Shown: piece by piece, positions 4,527 through 59,741 of the stretch
Layout: each line of letters starts with the position of its first letter
How positions within the stretch are numbered: the stretch's first letter is position 1
Source: Ulva prolifera
Lineage: Eukaryota; Chlorophyta; Ulvophyceae; Ulvales; Ulvaceae
Assembly (NCBI GenBank): GCA_023078555.1
Contig: CM041197.1
Location: 2,204,501-2,268,500 of the forward strand
Length of the DNA: 64,000 nt
Direction of reading: 5' to 3'
Notes under the pieces: generated by a model
What the model saw: only the letters and a program-made list of their open reading frames with translations
Told to the model about the DNA's origin: nothing
Databases searched by the model: none
Made by a program: the position numbers and the translations under genes

Positions 4527-5621
4527 GCAGCTCAGGCTGTAGGGCCAGTGAGCGGGCTAGCCTCTTGACATCATGTTGCGTATAGTGACTGGGGCCGGGC
4601 GCACCTTGGCCATGACCGTGGCGTACGCGATCGCTGAGCAGTCAGCGTAGGCCGACGCCAGCGACTCCTGGTTGCCGCGGGCACACGCCTCGACCTCCGC
4701 GCGCGCGAACGCGTCCGCGATCAGCTCGATGAACGTCGATGCGGCCCCAAAGTCCGCCGCAGCGGCGTTGCTGATGCAGTCGCACTCCTCCGCGCTCGCC
4801 GCGACGGCCGTCGCGTGTGCCTCGGCCGTCGCAGCGGCCCACGCCTCGGCCGTCGCGCTCGCGCTCGCGCACCCAAACGCGTTGCCCCGTGACACGCACG
4901 CCGCCTGCGCATCGGCGAGGGCCGCCGCGATCACCGCGCCGCTGTCGGCGCCGGCCGACACGACCCGCGCGATAGTGCCGTCAAAGTCTGGGCGGCAGAA
5001 CTCGGTGAACGCCGCGGCAACGGCCGTCGCGTGGGCGTTCTCCATCTGCTCAAACACGGCCGAGTTGGAGCGGCTGGTGCATGCCACGGTCGAGCGTGTG
5101 GAGAAGGTTGTCGAGCGGAAATTGTTGCCCTCGTTGCCCTCGTTCCCCTCATTGCCCTCATTCCCCTCGTTGCCCTCATCGCCTTCGTTGCCCTCGTTAC
5201 CCTCATTACCTTCATTGCCCTCGTTGCCCTCATTCCCAGTCTTCCCTTCGTCACCCTCATTCCCCTCGTTGCCCTCATTCCCCTCGTTGCCTTCATCGCC
5301 CTCATCGCCCTCATTGCCGATGTCACCCTCGAACCGGAAGAACTTGAAGCCTTCATTTCCCTCATTTCCTTCGTTTCCCTCATTGCCTTCGTCACCCTCA
5401 TCGCCGCCTCTTTTCTTCCCGCCGGCGAGGAGGGTGCGGGTGGCGGCCGCTTCGGCGGTGGTGGAGAGGGCGGCAGATGCGCGGGCGGGGGCTGTTGCGG
5501 CGCCCGCGACCAGCAGGCCAACAGCAGCAGCAGCGTAGATCCTGCATGCATGCACCCGCTCTGCTTCTCTGACAGAGCTCTGCAGTCAGACTCCACTGAC
5601 GCACGTGCCATCAGTATGCAT
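3816..5621 (-). CDS. Secreted alanine/cysteine-rich protein with Asn-Glu-Gly repeat tract
   Basis: Function unknown. Coding exons on the minus strand: 5541-4605 and 3998-3816, joined in phase 0 (donor AAG|GTGCGC, acceptor GTGCAG). The first exon starts with a hydrophobic signal-peptide-like segment (IYAAAAVGLLVAGAATA). Because 5541 follows a TGCATGCAG acceptor, a tiny first exon 5621-5605 (ATG, donor GTGCGT, right phase) is proposed; the alternative is the ATG at 5555 in the same exon. After the signal come 26 Asp/Asn-Glu-Gly tripeptides in three blocks, then an Ala-rich domain of about 220 residues with regularly spaced Cys. That domain aligns with the 30935-33180 gene across the splice junction (DCSAIAYATVMAK then AIAEALLVGEC against DCAARVFVDVYSKAAAEAAV), which supports exon 2. 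Total about 378 residues, probably extracellular or wall-associated. Confidence 0.7.
4435..4522 (+). repeat. (CA)44 microsatellite
   Basis: 88 bases of perfect CA dinucleotide lie within the intron of the alanine/cysteine-rich gene at 3816-5621. Such a run is expected to be length-polymorphic. On either strand it opens meaningless His-Thr or Cys-Val reading frames. Confidence 0.95.
5125..5405 (-). repeat. 9-bp coding minisatellite (Asn/Asp-Glu-Gly)
   Basis: The 9-base unit (plus-strand form close to TTGCCCTCG or TTCCCCTCA) is repeated 26 times in three blocks. The blocks are separated by the sequences coding FKFFRFEGDIG and KTG. Third-position changes are common while the NEG/DEG reading is kept. 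No stop interrupts several other frames, so antisense frames here are shadows. Confidence 0.85.
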
Positions 5622-17375: not shown

Positions 17376-20300
17376 CTACACCTGAGAGCACACACCTTCC
17401 GAGTCACGGGGCGGTCCGGACCAGGACGCTGCGGTGAAGCGGTTGCGGCGGGGGGGCACCGTGTGGCGCCGCGGCGCCTGAACCCCCGCCCGACCCTTGT
17501 TCCGCAGCCGCGACGCCACCCGCGCGAACCCGGTCCCCCGCGAGCCGCGGGTCCGCAGCGGTGTGCTGTGCTCTGCAAGGCTGCTCGTGTCACTCAGCGC
17601 GGCGCTCGACTGCGCCTCCGGCGCCGGCGCCGGGGTACGCAGGAAGCTGCGCTGCGGCGGCTGCACGCCGCTGAAGGCGCCGCCGCCTCCGCCGGCGGCG
17701 CTCGCCGCCGGGCGGCCGCTGACGAACGGCCGGTGCTGGTACAGCTCCTGCCGCGACGGCGGCTGCCGCAGCGGTCGCTGCTGCGGCTCCTGCTGCATCA
17801 GCCGCTGCAGCAGCTGCCGGCGCGGTATCCGGTGCTGCTGCGCGGCCCCCGCCCCCGGCACATCGAGCCCCACGATCACATCGTAATCTTCGAGTGCCGC
17901 CCCCGCCGCGTCCCCATGCACTGCTTCGTCCATCACATGCCCCCCATCGTCCAGCACGCCCCCCTCCTGCATCCTTGGGCCTGCCGCCCCCGGCCCCCCG
18001 TCCAGCGCGGCGGCCACACCGGCCGTCGCCATCAGCGACGATTCGAACCCGCTCCGCGCGCCGGCCTCCCTATGCATCTGCATCGACGACCGCTCCGTAA
18101 TCGACTCACACGTCGACGACAGCAGCTCGTAAACCGCCGTCCGGTGTGGCCGCGCCGGGCTTCGGCCGTGAAGTGGCTGCAGCGCCGCTGCGAGCTTCGC
18201 GGCGACGCTCGCGATCGCGGCGTGCGACTGGTGCTTGTGTGGCTTCGGCCCGTGGCTGTGCGAGTGCGCGGCGGCGGCTGCCGACCCCCCCGGCCGCCAC
18301 ATCGCCCACGCCCCGCCGCTCGCCGCCTCCAACGTCCGCGCCCCCCCCGTGTCGTCGGACATGCGGTGGGCCGGCGAGTCGCAGAGCAATGCGTTCCGGG
18401 CGCTTGTGCCGGCTTCAACGCCGCCATCGTCCTCCTCGTCGCCTGCATCGCTCACTGGCGGAGGGAAAGCCGAGAGGCTCAGGCCCGAGCGGGGCTCACA
18501 GGTGGACATGGAGGTGAGGCCGCCACTGGGCACAGCCGCGAGCTCGCCGGCGCTGTCCGTGCCGATACGCCGGCCAATCGTGTCCGTGTACGAGCCGCTG
18601 TCGATCTCCTCGCCGAGGTCGCGCAGCAGGCCCTCGATCTGCATGCATGGTGCACATGAACGTGGATGGCACTGCCTGGTGTGAAGCCGTGGCTTTGCGC
18701 GGCGCGTGTGATGTATGGAACGGCCGCCGCCATGACGGTACAGGAGTCCAGTGGACGACGATCTTGCAGCGGCTGCTGCCGAGGCCACAATGGTTCTTGT
18801 GTTTGAGATCGGAGCCGGCATTGCTGTCGCCGCCAATTTGTATGTTTGTTCTGCGGTCCTGGTCCGATGCTGTGCGCAGTCAGCGCCCGGCAAATGAGCT
18901 CCTCACAGCACAAGCAGCAGTGGACACATGTGTATGGCAGCGGCGCCGCACCTGCTCAAACTTTGGCCGCTCTGCCGGGTCCGCCGTCAAACACGCACGC
19001 ATGGTCAGCATGTACGTCAGCGGCGTCGACCACGGCAGCTGCGGGAACTGCGAGTGCAGCCGGAAGTCTATCTCCTCATCTCCAGATCCCCCCGCGGTCG
19101 CAGGATCCCCGGCACCGCCGCCCTGCGCCCCCCCGACGGGCGAAGGCAGCGCCACCGCGTCTATGTGAGCCGGCGCCGGCAGGGTGGGGGACGGGTTCCG
19201 CTCCGGGATCGGGGGTGGAATGGTGAGGGTGTTGCGCTGGATCGGCCGGCTGGGGTGGTCGTCGGCGCCGCGGTGCAGGGGGGACTTGCCGGGGGCGGTG
19301 CCGGATGCGGCGTTGTCTTGGAGGGCAAAGGTCACGGAGCCGTCGGCAAAGGTGCTCTCCTCCTGAGGGGAGCTGAATGTGCCTCCGTCGATGTGGCCGG
19401 ACGATCTGCAGCACCGCACGCTGCGCCGTGAACGCACATGCCAGGGGGAGTGTCTACAACACAGAAAGGCCGGGGATGCGACGAAAGCGGTGGCAGGCAA
19501 GGCAACGTTCATACAAATCTGGGTGGGCACAACGGCAAATCAAATGTCTATCTCATGAGAAACTGCGTGCAAGACGATATGCTTCCGGTGGCCCCCAGAT
19601 GACAGACGAATCCAGAACCGATGACAATCGCAGAATTCGCTGAATCCTGGAGTCTCTGCCTGGTCAACTGGGGGCCAGGTCTCGAGCATGGTGCACTGCA
19701 GGTGCATGGTCGGTGCGCCGTGAACAGTCTGCTGTGAGCAGCTGCGCTATCTTGTGAGCGTATGCAGTTACATGTGTGTATATCTCTGCAAAAAACAGCC
19801 CCCAACCAGGCAGGCTATACAGTGGGCGAGGAGATGCAGGCCAGCCCGTACCGATCGGCACTGGCGTTCCAGGGCACCTCGCACATACGATAAAACATGT
19901 GACACACCTCGCCACACCTCGCCACACCTCGCCACACCTGCCGCACAATACGCCATACCACACAGCAGCGCTGCTACAATATGACGGATGAGGAAGGGGG
20001 GGGCACACTTGACGACGTATATCGGCGAGCCGGTCATGATCTCCCACATGACGATGCCGAAGGCGTACACGTCGCTGACCTGGTGCAGCTCGCGGCGCTC
20101 GGTGACCTCGGGCGCGGTGTAGAAGGGCGTGCCCTGGTGGATGCCGCTGACGTAGTCCTTGTCGCGCGGCAGCCGCATCGCGAGGCCGAAGTCCGTGAGC
20201 TTCACAGAAAAGTCCCCCGCGGCCACGGCGTCGGCGGCGCTGCTGTGCCGCTCAGGGTTGTACTGCACGGCTACGCAGTGAGGCTGGATGACTCGGAGGG

Positions 20301-23300
20301 CAGCTGTGGATTTTCATATGGACAAGGGGGGAGTATTGAGGCCGGGCGAATTCGATCGAGGCGCTGTCGTGGACGGTGAGTGGAGGTAATGTGAGGGGAG
20401 ACCCACTTAGCGCACTCCGCCACATCACGTCCAGTGTCAATGTGAAGTAAGTGTCGATCAACGCAGTACTGTTAAAGGGACATTGACAGCTCTGAATGGA
20501 TGGGACCACCTGCTGTGTGTGGCACAGTGAGTGTTGAGTTGCGTAGCTATGACTTCATCGGATCTTGGAGGCTACAGGGAACCGGGACCACGTGCCAAAG
20601 GGGCCTGCCACCTGGGCCCTTTGGTCTGACTCAGTGTGGGGTGATTTGACAGGATCAGGATCGTGACGGGTGCCGCTGAGGGGTTTGCAGGTGCTCATGG
20701 TTGATCACTAAACAGCAGCAGGCTGAGCACCTCGAGGCTGAGCACCACACAGCCCCAGAGACTGCTCGAGCACGCCGAAGCAGGAAGGAAACTCCAACAC
20801 CTGCCCAGCCTGTAGCTATGATGCCAGGCATGTTGCACAGGACATTGCAAGGAGGAAGCTGGACATGGGTGCTTTCCATAGGAATTCAAGAAGCAAGAAC
20901 CACCCCAGCATGGGGCACATTCCCAGCAACCACCCCAGCAGACAGGACACCACAGGGTATGTAACTATGCATAACACAACATAACAAGCCGTGCATGCGG
21001 ATGTTGCCACCTGTAGACAAACCTCCGAGGAGACGGCAGGCAGCATGCTCAGCCACATGCCACACCCGTGGGCACGTGCCAACATATGTACATTCCAGGT
21101 CAACCTCATAGCGCAAGTTTCTGTTTGATTTCAAAGAGTGCTGGAACAGGTGCTAGGTGTACACCTTCAGCAACCTGCCCCGACCCATACATGCACTCCA
21201 TGCACGCACCCGCCCCTGCCCTAGCCTATGACTGAACCTGCCTGTGCCCCTCTGCACTCTGGCCCTTCAACACTCAGGCCCATCAGCTCTGAAAAGCCTG
21301 AACAGTGGTCGTGTGTGGTGTGTGGTCGTGGTCGTGGTCTGGCCTGGCCGTCACCCAACACTGGTCTACAGGGGCGGTGATGCATGACTCGCATGTGTCT
21401 CATGTGCCTGGTTACTGAGGCAGCTTCAACAGGCTACATCCAACAATCTACTAATCTGTGACCTTCCTGCCTGTCTCTCCATACACCAGAGCGTGTGCTG
21501 TACACAACAGCACCACACAACAGCACCAGCGCGGCGTCAACATCCAGACAAAACCAGGCTGGCCTGCTTCCTAGACAACAGATCTCACCATGCAGAGGCC
21601 GCCAAAATCCAATATCAGTGATGGGCATGTGGGGGTCACATGCAGAGATAGCCCAGCCCAGGTGTGCAGTTGCATCTGTGCTACAGGAGGCTCTAGGCCT
21701 ATGACAGCGGATGAGGTCACAGGTCACACAACAACATGTGCACCCACTGCAGGTGCATTATCCTCTCCCACATGGATTGAAGCTCAGTTTGTGACCTGCC
21801 AGCATGAGCCTGCTGTTGCACACAACCACACAGCGTCTCCCACTCCCATTCATGCCAGAATGCATGCACATGCCATATGTCAGCACACCGGATTGCACAT
21901 ACTGGACTGCAACTCCTGCGCTGATGAGGCCCGGCACGTTCCTCCTACCACAACACCCCGCCATGTGGACCGGCCCGCGCTCGTGTGTGTCACAAAGTCG
22001 GAGCGGCTGGTAGCACCCGCGCTCGTATGTTTGTGTTCAGATGCTGCTTGAGCGGGTTCACACCACACAATGCTGAGACTGCACACGCTCCTCCGGGCAG
22101 AGTCAGGGGGCAGGGGGGGCGCACCTTGAGCAGCACGTTGGAGGGGTTGAGGTCGCCGTGGCAGATGCGCTTGGAGTGGAGGTACTGCATGCCGGCCGCG
22201 AGGCCGAGCAGCGCCCCCGACATGCGGCGCCACCGCACGCGCATCGTGTCGCCGCTGAACATCCCCGCCTCCAGGCCCCCCCGCAGGCTGCCGCCGTTGC
22301 AGTACTCCTGCACACCACGCATGTCACACATGCATGTGGAGCGGTCATCTGCATCTGTGCGTCGGCCTCCGGCGTGCTCGCTGCGGTCTTTTACCAGCGA
22401 CCGCCACTGATGCGTGTGTGCGCGCAACCCGGTCCTTCTGCTTGCATGCCGTGAACACGTCTTCGCCTTGCGCCCGCAGGGGCTGCCGCCAGAGTGGCGG
22501 AGTCATGCTGAGTCAGCACGCACCTGGATGAGGTAGAACTTGAAGACGCTGAGCTCCGGGCCGGCGGTGGACGTCGTGGCCTTCGAGATGTCGAGGATGT
22601 CGTGGCTGTAGGTGGCGACGACGTTCGGGTGGCCGAGGTTGCTGGCGATCGCGGCCTCGGACGCCACGAGCTCCGTCTCCCCGTCGCCGCCGCTGCTCGA
22701 AAAGATGACCGTCTTGATCGCGACCTCCAGCCCCCGCCACTGCCCTGCATGGAGTAAGGTGCCGTCACCCACTCGCGTTATTGCATAATCCCGCATGAAC
22801 AGGGCACAGGACGAGGGGCGGGTGGAAGTGCAGACGCAGAAGACGCGGTGCCAAAATCAAATGCAGCTGCCGCGGTGCACATTCCAAACCTGTGGAGCCT
22901 GCGTGCCCATCACCTACAGGGGAGAAAGGACCGCATGAGGCCGCTCACGCTGTCTCGTCGCCGCCCGGCCACGCTGCAGCGAATCATGGGTGCCGGCACG
23001 TACGACGGGACGCCGCAAACTACACCACGAGCAGAGGAACAGCACGCACAGCATGCCCAGCACCGCACCATGGTAGACGACGCCGAAGCCGCCGCGGCCC
23101 AGCACACCCAGCAGCTGCAGGTGGTCGTCCTGCAGCTCCGTCTGCAGCGCGGTCTGCATCTCCTTCACCGCAGTCGCGACCTTCCCATGCACGCGCGCAG
23201 CCCCCTCGACCCCCCCTCCCTCCGCCTCCTCCTCCTCCTCCACCGCCCCCTCCTCCTCCTCTGTACAGTCTGTGTCGCGCAGCGCAGCTAGCGCGAGGGA

Positions 23301-51476: not shown

Positions 51477-54400
51477 TTAGCTGCCGTCGGCGGGGGGCCC
51501 GGCCAGCGCGAGGGTGTCCTCCAGCCGTCCCATGTCCTTCAGCATAGCACACGCCATGCCCAGCATGGGCAAGCACAGCAGCGCGCCGGTGCCCTCCCCG
51601 AGGCGGAGCCCCATGTGGAGCGGGGGCGCGGCGGCGACGCCGGCGCGGCGCAGCGCGGCGAGCAGCGTCGCGGCGCCGCGCTCGTCACTGCGGTGGCTGA
51701 GCAGCACGGCGCCGGCGGCGGCGGGCTCGAGCAGCACTGCGGCGAGCGCGGCCGCGCCGCTGATGAAGCCGTCGACGAGAACCACCATCTTGGTCTGCAC
51801 ACGCACACACTCTCCATTCTACACGGATTCTGCTACGCAGCAGCATTGGGTTATCTGATTGGGTCAGCTGTTTCTTGCATTGTCTTCTCCGCTGAAGGAT
51901 GCCGCAGGGACGGTGGCAGCGATCGTACTCATCGTCTCACCTGCAGCTGTCGCACTCAAGCGCTCCAGCAGCTGCTGCAGACTGATACATACTACCGGTG
52001 GAGCAGTGCACAGTCGTCGGACCCGACCAGTCATCACAACACACGCAGGATCTCATGGCGGGATAATTAATAATTTGGTCTGATGGCTGTATGGCAGCGA
52101 CGCGTTGCGGTGCAGGGCGGCATGGCACTGGCACACCACGTGTTACAGGGACCAAGACGGCGAGGCAGGCAGCACCGCGAAACGCAGCGTCAGACAGTGT
52201 GCATGAGGCAGCCCAGTGCTATCGCCGCTATACCACCGGATCCTTGCACGTTGCGGCGTCACTGGAAACCACAGTGCAGCATGTGAGTCCACCCGTGGAG
52301 GCGCACGTCTCGGGCTGCGACGATGGCCCCCGCGATCGCCGCGAGCTCCAGCCCGCCCACCTCCTCCAGCATCGCCTCCGCAAACTCCCTCGGAACCCTG
52401 GCTGCGGCCTCATCCTCGGTCTCCGCCGCATCGGCGCCGGGGCGCGGCAGCGCGCGCCGAGAGAGGTCGGCCGGGGGCGGGCGCGCCTTGTGCGCGCGGT
52501 CCACGGCAGCCTGCACCACTCGCACCTTCTCCGCGAGCCCCGCGTCGTCGACCCCCGTGCCGCGGCCAGTGGTCTCCGTTGCTGGTGCCCCTGCATCAGC
52601 CTGCTGGATCAGCCGGTGTGTGAGGCGCCTGTGTAGTCGTGCAGACGCTCGCATTGGGCTCGCCGCAGGTTCTTTGATGCGGCCTGGCTCTGTGGACAGG
52701 GAGCGCAGACAGTGATTGGGCACACTTGAGTCGCTCCGGGGCACAGGCAATCGGTGGCATCAGACTGGGTCTTGTCGGGGCTGTCACAGGCCAAGAAAAA
52801 TAGACGAATCTCTCGGTGCGATCGAGCCCAGCTCCACCACGTCGGATGGCCCTCGCCGATCCCCATGACCCGAGGTTGTTGCTCCGATGGCAGCGCAGTG
52901 AAGTGTGCGTAGCAGCCGGGCACGTGCCTGAAACGGCAGCCCGGCTGCGGCAGCCGCTGCACATGCGGTGACGCGCAGACCTATTATACTCTAAAGGACA
53001 TCAGATCAAGTCGACACACGAAGGACACCAGTGACCACAAACACGCCTTCTCTGCTACCCCACCAACGAAAACCACGACCTCCAGCATCACTGGCACCAT
53101 GGTCGGAGATCCGCCACGGGTGGGAGGCGCACCGGTGAGCGCCGAGAGGAGCGCGGCGGCTGCCGTCGTGTTGCCGATGCCGATCTCACCGACGCACAGA
53201 ACCCTGACGCCGTCCTGCGCGGCGCTGAGCGCGGCGGCGCGGCCCATGGCAATCGCCTCCTGGCACTCCGCGTGCGTCATCGCCGCCTCCGTCAGCATGT
53301 CCCGCGAGCCGTCGCGCACGGGCTGCTGGTCGATGATGATCGTGTGGCCTGCACGCATGCGCATGTTGCATGTGCATACATGCATGGCCCCGAGTCCCCG
53401 CCGATGCCCACAGGCACATTGACACCCCGGATCGGGAGGGAATCCCCAAAGTTTTGCACGTCCACCCGCCTGTCAAGCAAAGCTGAAATGACCGTCATGC
53501 ATGCGCAGGGGACAGGCCTGAGTCATCTGCGTCGATTGCGCTGACTAGGCAATGTCTCGCATGATGTGTGTTGCCTGCTGTGGAGGTGCCCATCCGACGG
53601 GAGCCTTGAGCGGCACAGTGTTGCGCACACGCTGGGGTGGACACAATACAGGCACGGCCGGGAAGCACGCGGGGGCGGGGCCAGTGCTCGACAGGGCCAT
53701 GTTTTTCTCTGGAGGGATTCCCGCTGGATTCAATCAAAACCGAGCGGTGCTGCACCGCTGAGGGACAGCTGCCAGCGGGCTGCGCTCGCGACCTCCAGGA
53801 ATGATTGGCCCTGACAGCCCGAATTCAGCGGCGAATCCTGTCAAGGACCCCCCCAATCCTGACGGGGTTTCTGGGCAAAACGTCGATTTCAGCGGGAGTC
53901 CTGGCGGGATGTAGAGCACTGGGCGGGGCTTCGCACCGAGGCGGTCAGCGTCAGGGGTCGGGTTCGCAAAGAGGCTGGAGCTCGCTTCGTCGTCCGTCGC
54001 GTAGTCGCCGCCGGGCAGGAAGCTGGAGAGCATGCCGGAGGAGACGCGGGCGGCGGCGTTGGCGGCGGCGGTGGCCGGGGGGGCTGGGGGGCAGATGCCG
54101 ACGTCGATGGCGTGCACGGAAGCGCCACACGCTCGCGCCATCACGCAGCTCGCCGCGATGCCCGCGCGGATCGACTCGAAGATGGCCGACGTGACTGCAT
54201 GCATGCGACGCGGCGGAGTGCGTCAGCCCATTCAGCATGAGCAGCGTATGTACAGTGCAAGTGCATGTTTCGCTGGGGGAACAAGCCGCAGCACGGCGGG
54301 AACTGGTGTGCCAGATCTGTTGATGGCAACGTGGCGGCAACCGTAGTCATCGGGCCTCGATGGCACAGGACAATTCCGAACATGGTATTCTGATGTCTGG

Positions 54401-55827
54401 ACTGTGTGTTCTGATGTCTGGACTGCGAACATGTGACCTGATGTCGTTGGGCCAATGCTGGGTGGCAGAGAGCATGCACAGCGCACAGCACGGGCCCCCG
54501 GCCGGTGTGCTCGTTGCCGTTTATGCGATGAACGAGACCGACAGGCACGGGGCGCGTGCCGGAGCGAGGCCGGGGCGGTCTGATGGGAGGCCTGGCAGGG
54601 GAATGTGCCCTTGTGAGATAGCTCACGTGGCCCTCCGGCTGCTCCCGTCCGCGGCTGCATTCATCGACTCGTTCTTTGGTCTGAATATAGTGTGCGATTG
54701 TACGGACACGGGCTTGTAAAGTGATGCCGGCGTTACATGACGTTGGGTCGCATCCCGGTCGAAGCTGTGCTGCTCCGAGGGGCAGCGGCAGACGTTCGTG
54801 TAGACTCGATACAAGCACACGCACATGCGTCACAGGTTGGGGGCGCACCGCTGGAGGGGTAGGCGCTGACGCTGTGTGCCATGGCGACGCCGTGGTCTGC
54901 TCCGAAGATGAGGAGCCGCGCCGGGGTGGCCACAGGGGCGAGGGTCCCTTGCCGCGTGGCCAGCCTGCAACACCCCCCGATGCTCAGGGCCGTGTGTTAC
55001 AGGGTTGCAGTCGGCAAGGCAGGCGAGGCAGCGCAGCGTGTCTCGAACGGAAACACCACACGCGCAAGCTAGCACCGACACACTCCCACACCCACACCCG
55101 CACACATTTTGACCCACACAGGGCTGTGTGGAATAAACGAGGGAGAGCCCTATGGGAACAGGCCGCGGGCGGAGCATGAGTGCATTTGTCCCCAGGGATC
55201 TGTGCGTTCATGCATGCGCGTGGCATTCACAATGTTGCGAGCGTTGTCGCCACCGAGTACTGGCTACCGCGACCAAATGGGGGCAGATGCGCGAAACACA
55301 GCTTTCTCATGTACAGCAATATGAGTTTACCGCATTCAAGTGCTCGAGATCGTGTGTGTCTGAGGTCTCGCAGCGCAGCTGCGCCACGTCAACAGGTCTG
55401 GCTCGGAGGCTCCCCAGGCGGCTGTACTGTTGCGACATGCTAAGCACAAGCAAACATGACACACAGAAACCGCAAGGGATGGTCTCCGTTACGACCAGAT
55501 AGGCACGACAGCGTACACTGTCGTTGTGAGTCTACGTGGCTGCGACAAAGACCGCCGTTATCACGTTGCAACGTTGCATCCCCGGCAAGCATATTCAAGA
55601 CCATTGCTGCACATGTTACATAAGTCTGCATCAGGCTGCCTTCAAAACGCAGATGTATTGCATCTTGAACGATGAGAGGTAACAGGAAGGTCGTGATGGG
55701 GATCTGACGTGGGCTGAAGGCATGGTCGCTCGCACCGCTCTGCCCAGTCTTCAAGCATACCGAGCGATCCAGGAGGCTTGGTCTTCCCGTCCAGCGCGTT
55801 CCGCGCCTGCTGCTGTATGCTCCCCAT
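51477..55827 (-). CDS. cobT: CobT: nicotinate-nucleotide-dimethylbenzimidazole phosphoribosyltransferase
   Basis: Makes alpha-ribazole 5'-phosphate from nicotinate mononucleotide and a lower-ligand base such as dimethylbenzimidazole, for the nucleotide loop of cobalamin. Exons, minus strand: 55827-55736, 54964-54849, 54194-53937, 53348-53133, 52590-52307, 51794-51477; phases agree throughout, 427 residues. Motifs in order: LDGKTKPPGSLG (residues 12-23), IFGADHGVA, SVSAYPSS/VTS across a junction, HAIDVGI, PVRDGSRDMLTEAAMT, GEIGIGNTTAAAALLSALTG, TGRGTGVDDAGLAEK, LVDGFISGAAAL and RLGEGTGA, whose Glu (about residue 389) corresponds to the known catalytic Glu. The family is usually about 350 residues; the excess is mainly a low-complexity insert after HAIDVGI. 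The ATG at 55827 follows an in-frame TAG, and no transit peptide is visible, suggesting a cytosolic enzyme. It is divergent from cobS. Five introns and GTGCG donors exclude bacterial contamination. Confidence 0.92.
52143..52190 (-). mobile_element. Truncated TTGTAA-end retroposon copy in the last cobT intron
   Basis: Plus strand TTACAGGGACCAAGACGGCG, then AGGCAGGCAGCACCGCGAAA, matching the family 3' end in reverse. It lies between the exons at 52590-52307 and 51794-51477, where the intron also contains the palindrome half at 52225-52256. Confidence 0.55.
52225..52256. repeat. Half copy of the palindromic element
   Basis: CGCTATACCACCGGATCCTTG then CACGTTGCGGCG matches the inner half of the 99-bp element at 11347-11445 with a few changes. 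It lies in the last cobT intron. Confidence 0.5.
54997..55050 (-). mobile_element. Degenerate TTGTAA-end retroposon copy in cobT intron 1
   Basis: TTACAGGGTTGCAGTCGGCAA then GGCAGGCGAGGCAGC resembles the reverse of the family 3' end. No flanking duplication could be fixed. Confidence 0.4.
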
Positions 55828-56565
55828 GTTTGACGAAGGCTTGAAGGCGGGGAATGGACAGATGGGATGCTACCGAGGTTGGGTTCTGCGATCAGCCGCG
55901 AAGATGGGTACAGCAGCTGCGGTACGAGGGCACTACGACCTCTCAGGAGTCAAAGAGTTTAGAATATGCGGTATCTAGAGCCTGAGGCAACGGCCTTGCG
56001 CAGCTCGCCTCTGGGAGAAGAGGAGTGTCCTAAGCAACGACCTGCAGCTAGCGCGTCAGAGCAAGAGACAGCAGCGCTGCGACATGACATGCGCAGACTT
56101 TCTGATGCCGAGCCCCATTCAGTGGTCTGTGTTTCTGTCAGCTGAGCCTAGGTCTTCGTGCTGCAGTGACAGCTCCTGCTCAACGCTCCACTGCACCCCG
56201 ACATCTCGAGCTGCTGCAGCGGCAAAGACTCGCGGGGGGGTACAAATTTGGCCCACATCAAAATATCAAGATGCTTAATAGGCTGCAGATGCCAGCCGCG
56301 TCATGTGCTGCAGACAATGCGGCTTGCATATTCTAACAGAGACCTCAGAGATTGCACGACATGATGTCGCGCCGTTAGAGTTGTCACTTGCTGTGGATGC
56401 GGCCCTTCGAATGCTGAGCCCGCGTTGAAATATGAAGTTCTGAGTCTGCATGAACTAATCTCGATTTTGAGCGGAATGTGTATTTTGGTGTACGCGTAGT
56501 TTGACGGATCCAGCGACTTGAACTGGTTGTTCGCTACGTCAGAAACGGAGATCGGCAGCTCCCCA
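55828..56565. promoter_or_regulatory. Probable shared upstream region of cobT and cobS
   Basis: This lies between the cobT start codon (minus) and the first possible cobS exon (plus). Divergent genes of one pathway often share control elements here. I see no TATA box close to either start, and no known B12-responsive motif can be named. Confidence 0.4.
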
Positions 56566-56673
56566 ATGAGCGCACAGGTCGATCAGACTCAATCAGAAGC
56601 TTCTCAGCAGCCAGTCATGGCCGGGAGCGTGGTGTCGAAGCAGGAGATCGAGGACAGAGGAGCCGGCACTGCG
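56566..56673 (+). CDS. Possible first exon of cobS
   Basis: An ATG opens 36 polar codons (MSAQVDQTQSEASQQPVMAG...) ending at a GCG|GTATGG donor in phase 0, the phase needed by the cobS exon at 57677. The peptide is hydrophilic, not transit-like. The donor differs from the GTGCG norm, so this is one candidate among others. The proposed intron contains an AT-rich patch at 56755-56795. Confidence 0.3.
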
Positions 56674-57604
56674 GTATGGGTCGCCTGCCTCAGCAGAGTC
56701 ACCACACGCAGAAACCGCCGCCAACGACCACGTTTTGGGCTGCAACTTGCCTTACTTACTTGCCCTATAAATTACTTATATATTATACGTTTTGAAGGTT
56801 ATCGAGCTACCGGTGCTCTAGGCCCACCCCATCGCAGCATGCTTAAACAGTTCAACACATCCATCAAGCCGTGAGAGTGCAGTACAACTCCCACCAATTC
56901 AATCACACTGCATCTGCGCTATGGAGTGATATGGCTCCACGAATCATTACGCCGCATGCATCATGCTGTTCGCAGACGCGAAGCCGTGCCATGTCACCTG
57001 CAGCCAGATCACCAGAGAGCCCCACTCCCAGAATGCCATAGATACTGCATCATGTTTGCAACGGACTCTCCGGGGGCGCCGCTCAATTGCGGCCCTCCCG
57101 CAACGGCTGTTACTCCCAGGCAGGTGTCACTGTGAGACCTGCAGTGCATGATCTGAACACATGCCATCATTGCAGCACGGGCATACCCTCTCCACCACCA
57201 CGCTTGATGTTCATGCCGCTGTGCACAGCACACACTCCATCGGACAAGCCAAACGCATGGCCAAACCAAGTCAGCTGCTTGGCACAACATCATGCATGAG
57301 TACTCCCCCCCCACTACAAGAAACATGACCGGCGCAAAGAAGGACATGTGCAAGGTGCCACTTTCGACTTAGCCCCCCCCCCTTTCCCGAAAGGTATGAG
57401 TGAAAGTTCCCCGTAGAGCATGTCCAGCCCTCGTGCAAGCATAAAGCGCAGCCTCGCTCCGCCTCCGGCCTTCCCCGGCTGTCCCCCCAAGCACTGCTCC
57501 ACACGGACTGCGCAGAACGCGCATACATGCATGCATGCGGAGGGCACACCGGGAGTGGCGGCACAGCAAACATAGTAGTGCTGGGCCGGGGGTGCTCGCT
57601 GCCT

Positions 57605-57642
57605 CCGCGGTGCTGCCGGCCTCTCCGCCCCTGTCCGTGTAA
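57605..57642 (+). mobile_element. TTGTAA-end retroposon copy upstream of cobS
   Basis: CCGCGGTGCTGCCGGCCTCTC then CGCCCCTGTCCGTGTAA, 35 bases before the first certain cobS exon. It has substitutions and is not followed by the usual CAC. Confidence 0.5.
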
Positions 57643-57670
57643 GCTGCAAGTCGTCAATGTCGCAGCATGC

Positions 57671-59741
57671 ATGCAGGAGGGGGGCGACCCGTACGATGCG
57701 CGGCGGCCGTTACGCAGCGAGTGCCGCACGCTCTTCACCTGCGTCATGTTCCTCACGCGCCTGCCCGTAGGCACCTGGGCCGACCACCACCCGACCTTCC
57801 TCATGCGCTCGATGGCGTACTTCCCGCTCGTCGGCCTCGTGATCGGCGCGTGGGGGGCCGTGTGGTTTCAGGCGGCCGCCGCGCTCTGGGGGGCCCCCAC
57901 CGCCGCCGCCCTCTCGACTCTCGCCACCGTCTGGCTGACAGGTGCGGCGTCGCCCGCATGCATGTGTGCCTGGGGCGTGACGCGTACATGCCCGATGTGG
58001 CCGCGGCACAACGCGGCACATACGTAAGAGCCGAGTAGTCAGCATGCATGAAATGTATGCATGTGTACTTCCATGCGACTACTGCCATCGCCGAGCTGTC
58101 CAAGTGCATCACGGTGTAGTGTAGTTGCGGCCGCTGCCATGCATTCAGGCGAAGCACTCGCTCCAGCATGCCAGTGACGAGCGCATCAGGCCACGCAAGT
58201 ACGCATGCATGCAGGCTGCTTCCACGAGGACGGCCTCGCGGACACGATGGACGGCTTCGGCGGGGGCTGGGGGCGCGTCCAGATCCTGCGCATCATGAAG
58301 GACAGCCGAGTCGGAACGTACGCGCTCGTCGGCACCGTGCTCGTGCAAGCCGTCAAGCTGCTGTCGCTCGCCGCACTGCCGGCGCCGGCGGTCGCGCTGC
58401 CGCTCGCACACTGCCTCTCGCGCTGGGTGCCCCTGCCGATCTCCTTCATGTGCTCCTACATCCAGGTGTGGTGCCGCGTGCTGCGTGCTGCGATGTGTGT
58501 GCTGTGGCGCGGGCGCGCTCTGTGCTGCGCAGTAGCGCCAGATCGCTCATCGGTGTGTGTGTGCCGCGGGGAGCATAATTGGCGTGTGGCACTAGTAGTA
58601 CTGTTTCAGTGGATCGAACCCATCGGTGTGGTCCCGCGCCTGTGTGCCAATACGTGAGCGTGGTGCCGGGCTGGTCAAGACGCTGCACCCTGCCCAACGC
58701 CATCCCTCCGCAACTCGACCAGGAGTATGATAGCTGGTCCAGTTGGGGGGTTTGAGAAACAAGGCGCTGCGCTTGCGCGTCTTGTCGTGACTCTCCTGCA
58801 TGCTGTGCTGTGTGCTGTGCGACACGTGACACAATTGCGCCCGCACCATCCACTCACCCGCCCGCGCCGCCGCAGGACGAGGAGGACGCGAAGCGCGGCC
58901 TCTACAACTGGTTCGCCAAGGTCCAGGAGCTCTTCACTCCGGCGCGGCTCGCGGCGTCGACCGTGCTGTGCGTCGCCGCCGCCGTCGCGCTCTCCGACGC
59001 CTGCACCGTGTGCCTCGCGCTCGCGCTGTGCTCCGCGATCGCCGTCGCCGCCGCGTCGTACGCCGACAGCATGATCGGCGGCATCGTCGGGGACTTCCTC
59101 GGCGCCACCGTCGCCGTCACCGAGGTCGCCCTCTACCTCCTCCTCCGCCTCGACCTCTGTGGCGACGGCATGGTGCGCTGCTGCGTGCTGTGCATGCTGC
59201 GCAGTGCAAAATTTTTGGTCCATGCTGTGCACGCTCTGGTCCGTGCAGCGTGTGCTCTGCATGCTGGGGTCGAGATGATAGATGCTGCTCAGGCCGTGCC
59301 TTGCTGTGTGCTGTGGTGTGGGGCACACGCATGTGATTTATAGTCTGCAGCGTGCCGCATGTTGGCACCGGACGCTGCGCCGGAAATGCTTTGGCATGGT
59401 GGCCATGTCCTCCGCCAGGATGTGCGGTTGAGGCTCGCGCTGCGCCCTGGCGCCAAGGCTCGCACACGGCCACTGGTGCATGCACCGCGTGCCGCGTGCT
59501 GCGTGCTGAGTAAGGGGCCACCCCACCACCATGGGCCGAAGTACATTGACAACTTAAACTTCGATCTGTGCTCGGAATCGCTGAAGTGATTAACACGGTC
59601 GCCCAATGCATCGTCATCATGCACGAGCGTTGTTTGCAGGAGCTGTTTCAAGATCGAGGCGTGCAGGCGAGCGTCGGGATGCTCGCCGCCGCTATCGCCA
59701 CCCTCTACATCTACTGCACTGTATTCGTCACAACGATATAG
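57671..59741 (+). CDS. cobS: CobS: adenosylcobinamide-GDP ribazoletransferase
   Basis: Integral membrane enzyme that joins alpha-ribazole (phosphate) to adenosylcobinamide-GDP, giving adenosylcobalamin (phosphate) and GMP. Exons: 57677-57941, 58215-58465, 58876-59172, 59640-59741; all phases agree, 304 residues. Motifs in order: MFLTRLPVG, MAYFPLVGLVIGAW, then LTG joined across the first intron to CFHEDGLADTMDGFGGG (the family's H-x-DGLAD-x-DGFGGG metal-binding block), ILRIMKDSRVGTYA, and SMIGGIVGDFLGATVAVTE. Several hydrophobic helices alternate with these loops, and the last short exon encodes a final membrane helix. The ATG at 57671 could be the start, but its bases form a GCATGCATGCAG acceptor, so an upstream exon is likely (candidate 56566-56673). 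It runs divergently from cobT. Confidence 0.9.

Follow-up and report, generated by a model that had tools for sequence, protein, structure and literature searches.

The window examined here is a stretch of 64,000 nucleotides from the green alga Ulva prolifera (assembly GCA_023078555.1, contig CM041197.1, positions 2,204,501 to 2,268,500). Between positions 51477 and 59741, counted from the first letter of the window, it carries predicted genes for CobT and CobS, two enzymes that finish cobinamide into cobalamin in bacteria. A first-pass annotation of this DNA had described them as a head-to-head pair of native eukaryotic genes with complete motifs, split by introns with in-phase joins. Spliced models built by hand confirm the arrangement: the two genes lie divergently on opposite strands, their start codons are 1,843 bp apart, and the motifs that had been quoted are present in the sequence and in frame. 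The contig that holds the pair is 12.5 Mb long, one of the 44 that make up the 88.9 Mb assembly, and the pair lies about 2.25 Mb into it. Whole-genome profile searches returned one locus each for CobT and CobS, with no second copy.

Gene models and layout of the pair

The predicted CobT is encoded on the minus strand by six exons and has 427 amino acids. The start ATG and the motif KPPGSLG lie in exon 1 (55736..55827), GADHGVA in exon 2 (54849..54964), a first inserted loop in exon 3 (53937..54194), VGEIGIGNTT with E210 in exon 4 (53133..53348), a second inserted loop in exon 5 (52307..52590), and RLGEGTGA with E389 and the stop codon in exon 6 (51477..51794). Four plus-strand exons encode the predicted CobS of 306 amino acids. 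Exon 1 (57671..57941) has an uncertain start codon, exon 2 (58215..58465) holds HEDGLADTMD and MKDSRVG, and exon 3 (58876..59172) holds GIVGDFLG. Exon 4 (59640..59741) encodes a hydrophobic C-terminal segment past the Pfam domain; it has no counterpart in the bacterial CobS proteins aligned and no homologue to serve as a check, and is the least certain of the exons.

All eight introns, five in CobT and three in CobS, are of the GT-AG type, and the frame is kept across each of the eight joins, the models ending exactly with the stop codons at 51477 and 59741. The donors begin with GTGCG in seven introns and with GTGTGG in the remaining one, while every acceptor ends in CAG. The guanine-cytosine (GC) content at third codon positions is 89% in CobT and 93% in CobS, against 56-63% GC in the eight introns, which is strongly coding-like. 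The start ATG of CobS (57671) is overlapped by an acceptor-like CATGCATGCAG string, and for this reason an additional exon upstream is possible. Exons 3 and 4 of CobT and exon 2 of CobS are also directly preceded by strings of the GCATGCRTGCAG type (54195-54208, 53349-53362 and 58201-58214, respectively), and a similar string lies at 57666-57676, across the CobS start ATG.

The gap between the start codons (55828..57670; 1,843 bp, GC 56%) would contain both promoters and both 5' untranslated regions. The shared upstream region of the first-pass annotation is a statement about distance only, at most 1,843 bp, and a shared promoter is putative. An Rfam scan of the 64-kb window gave nothing at the gathering thresholds, so a known riboswitch was not seen in it.

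Families, residues and bacterial relatives

Both Pfam matches are far beyond chance. The spliced CobT matches PF02277 with an E value of 1.9e-92 and 310.5 bits, above the gathering cut-off of 22.6, and the spliced CobS matches PF02654 with an E value of 5e-45 and 154.6 bits, above the cut-off of 23.2. Since the matches start at residue 4 in CobT and residue 25 in CobS, neither protein has a long leader as modelled.

In CobT, E389 and E210 are aligned with E317 and E174 of the Salmonella enterica enzyme (1d0s), which we take to be catalytic or pocket glutamates. The glutamate of RLGEG (E389) is kept in 77 of the 78 bacterial rows, with a gap in the other one, and that of GExGxxNTT (E210) in 75, with aspartate in the other three. 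The two inserted loops (53937-54194 and 52307-52590) are missing from the six plasmid-borne bacterial CobTs that were aligned. Isoleucine was observed at residues 74 (exons 2-3) and 211 (exon 4), which are aligned with Q88 and L175 of the S. enterica enzyme, presumably residues of the lower-ligand pocket; methionine stands at the first of these positions in 77 of the 78 bacterial rows, the other having a gap, and at the second in all 78. Given the two isoleucines, the base preference of the algal CobT may differ.

In CobS, the motif HxDxxxDxxD corresponds to H94, D96, D100 and D103, and GxxGDxxG to G243, G246, D247 and G250. All eight residues are identical in the 86 bacterial rows. Excerpts of a study of S. 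enterica CobS describe the aspartates D82, D86, D89 and D229 of the two loops as required, and a variant of the histidine as open to rescue by more precursor (PMC8092220). CobS is a membrane protein in the bacterial relatives and may be one here. A simple Kyte-Doolittle plot gave about six hydrophobic regions in the algal CobS, similar to three bacterial CobS proteins, but it also flagged one region in CobT, a soluble enzyme.

The bacterial arrangement was compared over 90 loci: 80 from bacteria, picked for the likeness of their CobS, nine from plasmids (two of them from one record) and one from a viral collection. The sample is incomplete, as the CobS alignment held at least 587 relatives in at least 592 stretches, of which the best 80 were kept. 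Both genes were found in the fetched stretch at 74 of the 90 loci, and they are co-directional in all 74; CobS alone was found at 12 loci and CobT alone at four, some of them perhaps because the stretch ends. The algal pair therefore resembles the bacterial cobT-cobS(-cobC) operon in having the genes of the two enzymes in one stretch, whereas it differs in being divergent and intron-split, in the loops of CobT and in the extra C-terminal segment of CobS.

'Quick' trees were made from 86 CobS and 78 CobT bacterial rows plus the protein from the window. In each tree the algal protein forms a long, deep branch apart from the main groups of Bacteroidota and of betaproteobacteria, and each tree carries long-branch warnings. 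The best identity in the trees is 42% for CobT and for CobS, and CobT reaches 43% to Deinococcus in another alignment; short pieces of CobS are 60-67% identical, over only 12-14% of the length. Since both branches are long and deep and carry these warnings, no donor is named. The idea that both genes came from a single bacterial lineage was weighed as well, and the long-branch trees give no donor for it.

That the pair is a bacterial contaminant, or was recently acquired from a bacterium, might be suspected from the fact that both families are bacterial and that bacterial kin often keep both genes in one stretch, but it is barely credible here. The five and three GT-AG introns, and a location 2.25 Mb into a contig of 12.5 Mb, exclude a contaminant. 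Together with the best identity of 42-43% over the alignments and the long branches they also exclude a recent transfer, leaving room for an old one. The view of the first-pass annotation that the pair are native eukaryotic genes agrees with the introns, the contig, the coding-like GC and the identity of at most 42-43% to bacterial kin.

The viral collection searched with alignments gave no CobS and one CobT, a fragment (L124) that the algal CobT joins with a support of 91 in the 'quick' tree. On this IMG/VR contig the CobT fragment and cobalamin-like frames were seen by eye beside phage-like frames, and from its neighbours the contig looks bacterial or phage-borne. CobT alone against the genome-contig collection gave 134 pattern matches and no relative, and CobS alone against the viral-contig collection gave no pattern match.

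B12 genes elsewhere in the genome

The whole genome was searched with profiles exon by exon at a threshold of E <= 0.1, with 14 prokaryotes, which lack introns, as controls. A short, intron-rich gene for CobU, CbiB, CbiZ, BluB or methylmalonyl-CoA mutase could escape such a search, whereas the split genes of CobT, CobS, METH and METE were found by the same tool. The absence of the five is therefore probable rather than proved.

METH and METE, which it had been proposed to look for, are both present, as they are together in Chlamydomonas. METH was read as separate open pieces, which include, by eye, the start and the B12-binding parts. A single Cob_adeno_trans gene was found at C3:10,565,420-10,565,938 (locus L125, 194 bits). 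Its best match among solved structures is the mitochondrial adenosyltransferase 2idx (2.2e-47), which we take to be the human protein, and by this likeness the gene is assigned to the CblB/MMAB-type corrinoid adenosyltransferases. The CobU/CobP-like kinase that had also been suggested as a target did not turn up: PF02283 had no match at the threshold, while six of the 14 controls were positive, and a split gene could escape. No match at the same threshold was returned in this genome for CbiB (PF03186), CbiZ (PF01955), BluB or methylmalonyl-CoA mutase. At C9:5503313-5505767, pieces of histidine phosphatase are ordered as if they formed two tandem domains.

A likely role in cobamide remodelling

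Among the closest known counterparts of this pair are the algal genes described by Helliwell et al. (2016). As excerpted, that paper reports that Chlamydomonas reinhardtii and Pavlova lutheri have COBT, COBS and COBC, ties them to the remodelling of pseudocobalamin, and lists 46 more candidate strains across several algal groups (PMC4850488). Pseudocobalamin supplied with dimethylbenzimidazole (DMB) is described there as supporting the growth of P. lutheri and of a C. reinhardtii metE mutant, whereas cobinamide with DMB did not rescue the C. reinhardtii mutant (PMC4850488). According to the accessible part of a paper of 2020, the genes required for algal remodelling had not been identified (PMC7733943). 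The U. prolifera genome resembles the published set in having COBT and COBS as nuclear genes together with METH, and, as in C. reinhardtii and P. lutheri, neither CbiZ nor CbiB was found. In U. prolifera the genes are head to head, a point of layout on which the excerpts for the other two algae are silent, and, unlike there, no specific COBC could be pinned down. Remodelling in C. reinhardtii is reportedly also the subject of Baum et al. (2020), and Ma et al. (2020) are said to have worked on Vibrio cholerae.

Taken together with the remodelling phenotype of Chlamydomonas, which has the same genes, the gene set suggests that CobT and CobS are probably the COBT-COBS pair of a facultative B12-using alga that remodels imported cobamide with DMB. 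This agrees with one of the two roles offered by the first-pass annotation, the remodelling of pseudocobalamin. CobT would join DMB to phosphoribose, giving alpha-ribazole phosphate; because BluB was not found, the DMB would be supplied from outside. CobS would then attach the alpha-ribazole phosphate to the corrinoid of a cobamide taken up by the cell, for instance pseudocobalamin. A histidine phosphatase would take off the phosphate, and the remodelled product would serve METH. We infer remodelling in this alga, the external source of DMB, the acting phosphatase and the removal of the old base. The novelty of the first-pass reading was overstated, as algal COBT, COBS and COBC had already been described, and linked to remodelling, in 2016, and the pair is a further case of that kind. 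For the layout alone, no report of a divergent CobT/CobS arrangement was found among open-licence PubMed Central papers.

Several observations weigh against this reading. Both proteins fall below the cut-offs of the NCBI models. CobT scores 298.4 against 319.3 for TIGR03160 and 293.1 against 306 for NF000996, in a match of three stretches interrupted by the two inserted loops, and CobS is matched by six models and is below the cut-off in all of them (best NF001277, 176.2 against 273; TIGR00317, 90.5 against 110; the others lower). Since these cut-offs are not reached, the proteins can be filed in their Pfam families, and it is only likely that they catalyse the exact reactions of their bacterial relatives. 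One METH match contains a TAG codon; the coordinates place this codon at the very start of the match, so that it is probably an intron edge. The proposed check for a CobC-like phosphatase identified no specific CobC: it gave ten weak histidine-phosphatase matches and none above the cut-off, and the best candidate is closest to fructose-2,6-bisphosphatase. In the 14 controls, the alpha-ribazole phosphatase model gave weak matches in 13 and passed the cut-off in two. Aureococcus anophagefferens makes use of pseudocobalamin when the DMB level is very high, an effect seen at 10 uM DMB with CobT and CobC present and CobS not found, which suggests that CobS may not always be needed (PMC4850488). Finally, a review, in the part available, credits all eukaryotes with the ability to use cobinamide (PMC8123684), and this conflicts with the Chlamydomonas experiment.

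The same assertion, along with the part that the two enzymes play in bacteria, speaks for the other role that had been offered, in which the pair would complete salvaged cobinamide into cobalamin. This role is very improbable in U. prolifera. CobU was not found, allowing for a short intron-split gene that could escape, and Chlamydomonas with the same genes did not grow on cobinamide and DMB. That result also bears on a remodelling route in which an unrecognised enzyme strips the old loop, comparable to CbiZ or CbiR, the step of CobU is taken over by a non-homologous kinase and guanylyltransferase, and CobS works forwards only. Such a hydrolase is plausible since CbiR itself, a member of a large TIM-barrel superfamily, was described as late as 2020, as the accessible text of PMC7733943 has it. 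The route predicts the use of cobinamide with DMB, which Chlamydomonas does not show, unless the cut retains the phosphate and by-passes the kinase or cobinamide is not taken up; the failure to find CobU, CbiB and CbiZ counts against it as well. It is possible, although we regard it with some doubt. The adjacency of the two genes could also be accidental and without co-regulation. For a bidirectional promoter, a gap that may reach 1.8 kb is long; on the other side, two pre-named genes in a genome of 88.9 Mb would be divergent and at most 1,843 bp apart with a probability of about 1e-5, a figure that overstates the case because the pair was noticed first and picked post hoc. On balance an accidental adjacency seems rather unlikely.

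Within the preferred reading, remodelling of an imported cobamide with DMB, it is tentatively proposed that the eukaryotic system is a minimal one, with the exchange of the base carried out by CobS itself. This enzyme would act in reverse on pseudocobalamin (phosphate) and guanosine monophosphate, yielding guanosine diphosphate (GDP)-cobinamide and alpha-adenosine (phosphate), and then in the forward direction on the alpha-ribazole phosphate that CobT supplies. This would be the most economical solution because CobU, CbiB and CbiZ were not seen and cobinamide is unusable in Chlamydomonas. If true, it would explain both the failure to see these three genes and why, in the model alga, DMB works with pseudocobalamin and fails with cobinamide; the head-to-head genes would produce the two committed enzymes together. 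Bacterial CobS acts on adenosylated corrinoids. For this reason the adenosyltransferase would gain a role in a genome where the mutase was not found, as a CblB-type enzyme would hold the corrinoid in the adenosylated form for CobS. A type II ribonucleotide reductase is another possible client; excerpts of PMC11439496 describe this enzyme as using adenosylcobalamin and as occurring in some Chlamydomonadales. The CobS of V. cholerae has been proposed to be bifunctional and to act in remodelling (cited in the available text of PMC7733943 and PMC8092220), a bacterial case that is likened here by role only and for which, as PMC8092220 states in excerpt, there was as yet no proof in vitro in 2021.

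With CobT, CobS and CblB present, and with no CobU, CbiB, CbiZ or mutase found in a genome assembled into multi-megabase contigs, fewer options are left for remodelling. This gene set would point to CobS as the remodelling enzyme, with a possible role for CblB. It may thereby give a lead on why some green lineages retain CblB without the mutase, which is described as unexplained in hornworts and liverworts, the mutase being rare in chlorophytes (PMC11439496, in excerpt). In the excerpted text of PMC4850488, most of the cyanobacteria searched are predicted to make pseudocobalamin, which the tested algae use poorly; algae that remodel it would therefore shape the sharing of B12 in water.

Some further observations concern other genes. 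Matches to the chlorophyll a/b-binding family number 38 in the genome, and many are single exons. The top scores of frame L023 are two long multi-domain chains of PDB entry 9vfj named LHCI, followed by many LHCII chains, and frame L026 is closest to CP29 chains, which suggests a green-type chlorophyll a/b antenna, probably that of a primary green alga. In the window, an open frame with GNEGDEG repeats on the minus strand (4557-5585) has a match to the collagen repeat (1.6e-10). Two protein-kinase domain fragments, also on the minus strand (19768-20313 and 21990-22502), possibly belong to one intron-split kinase.

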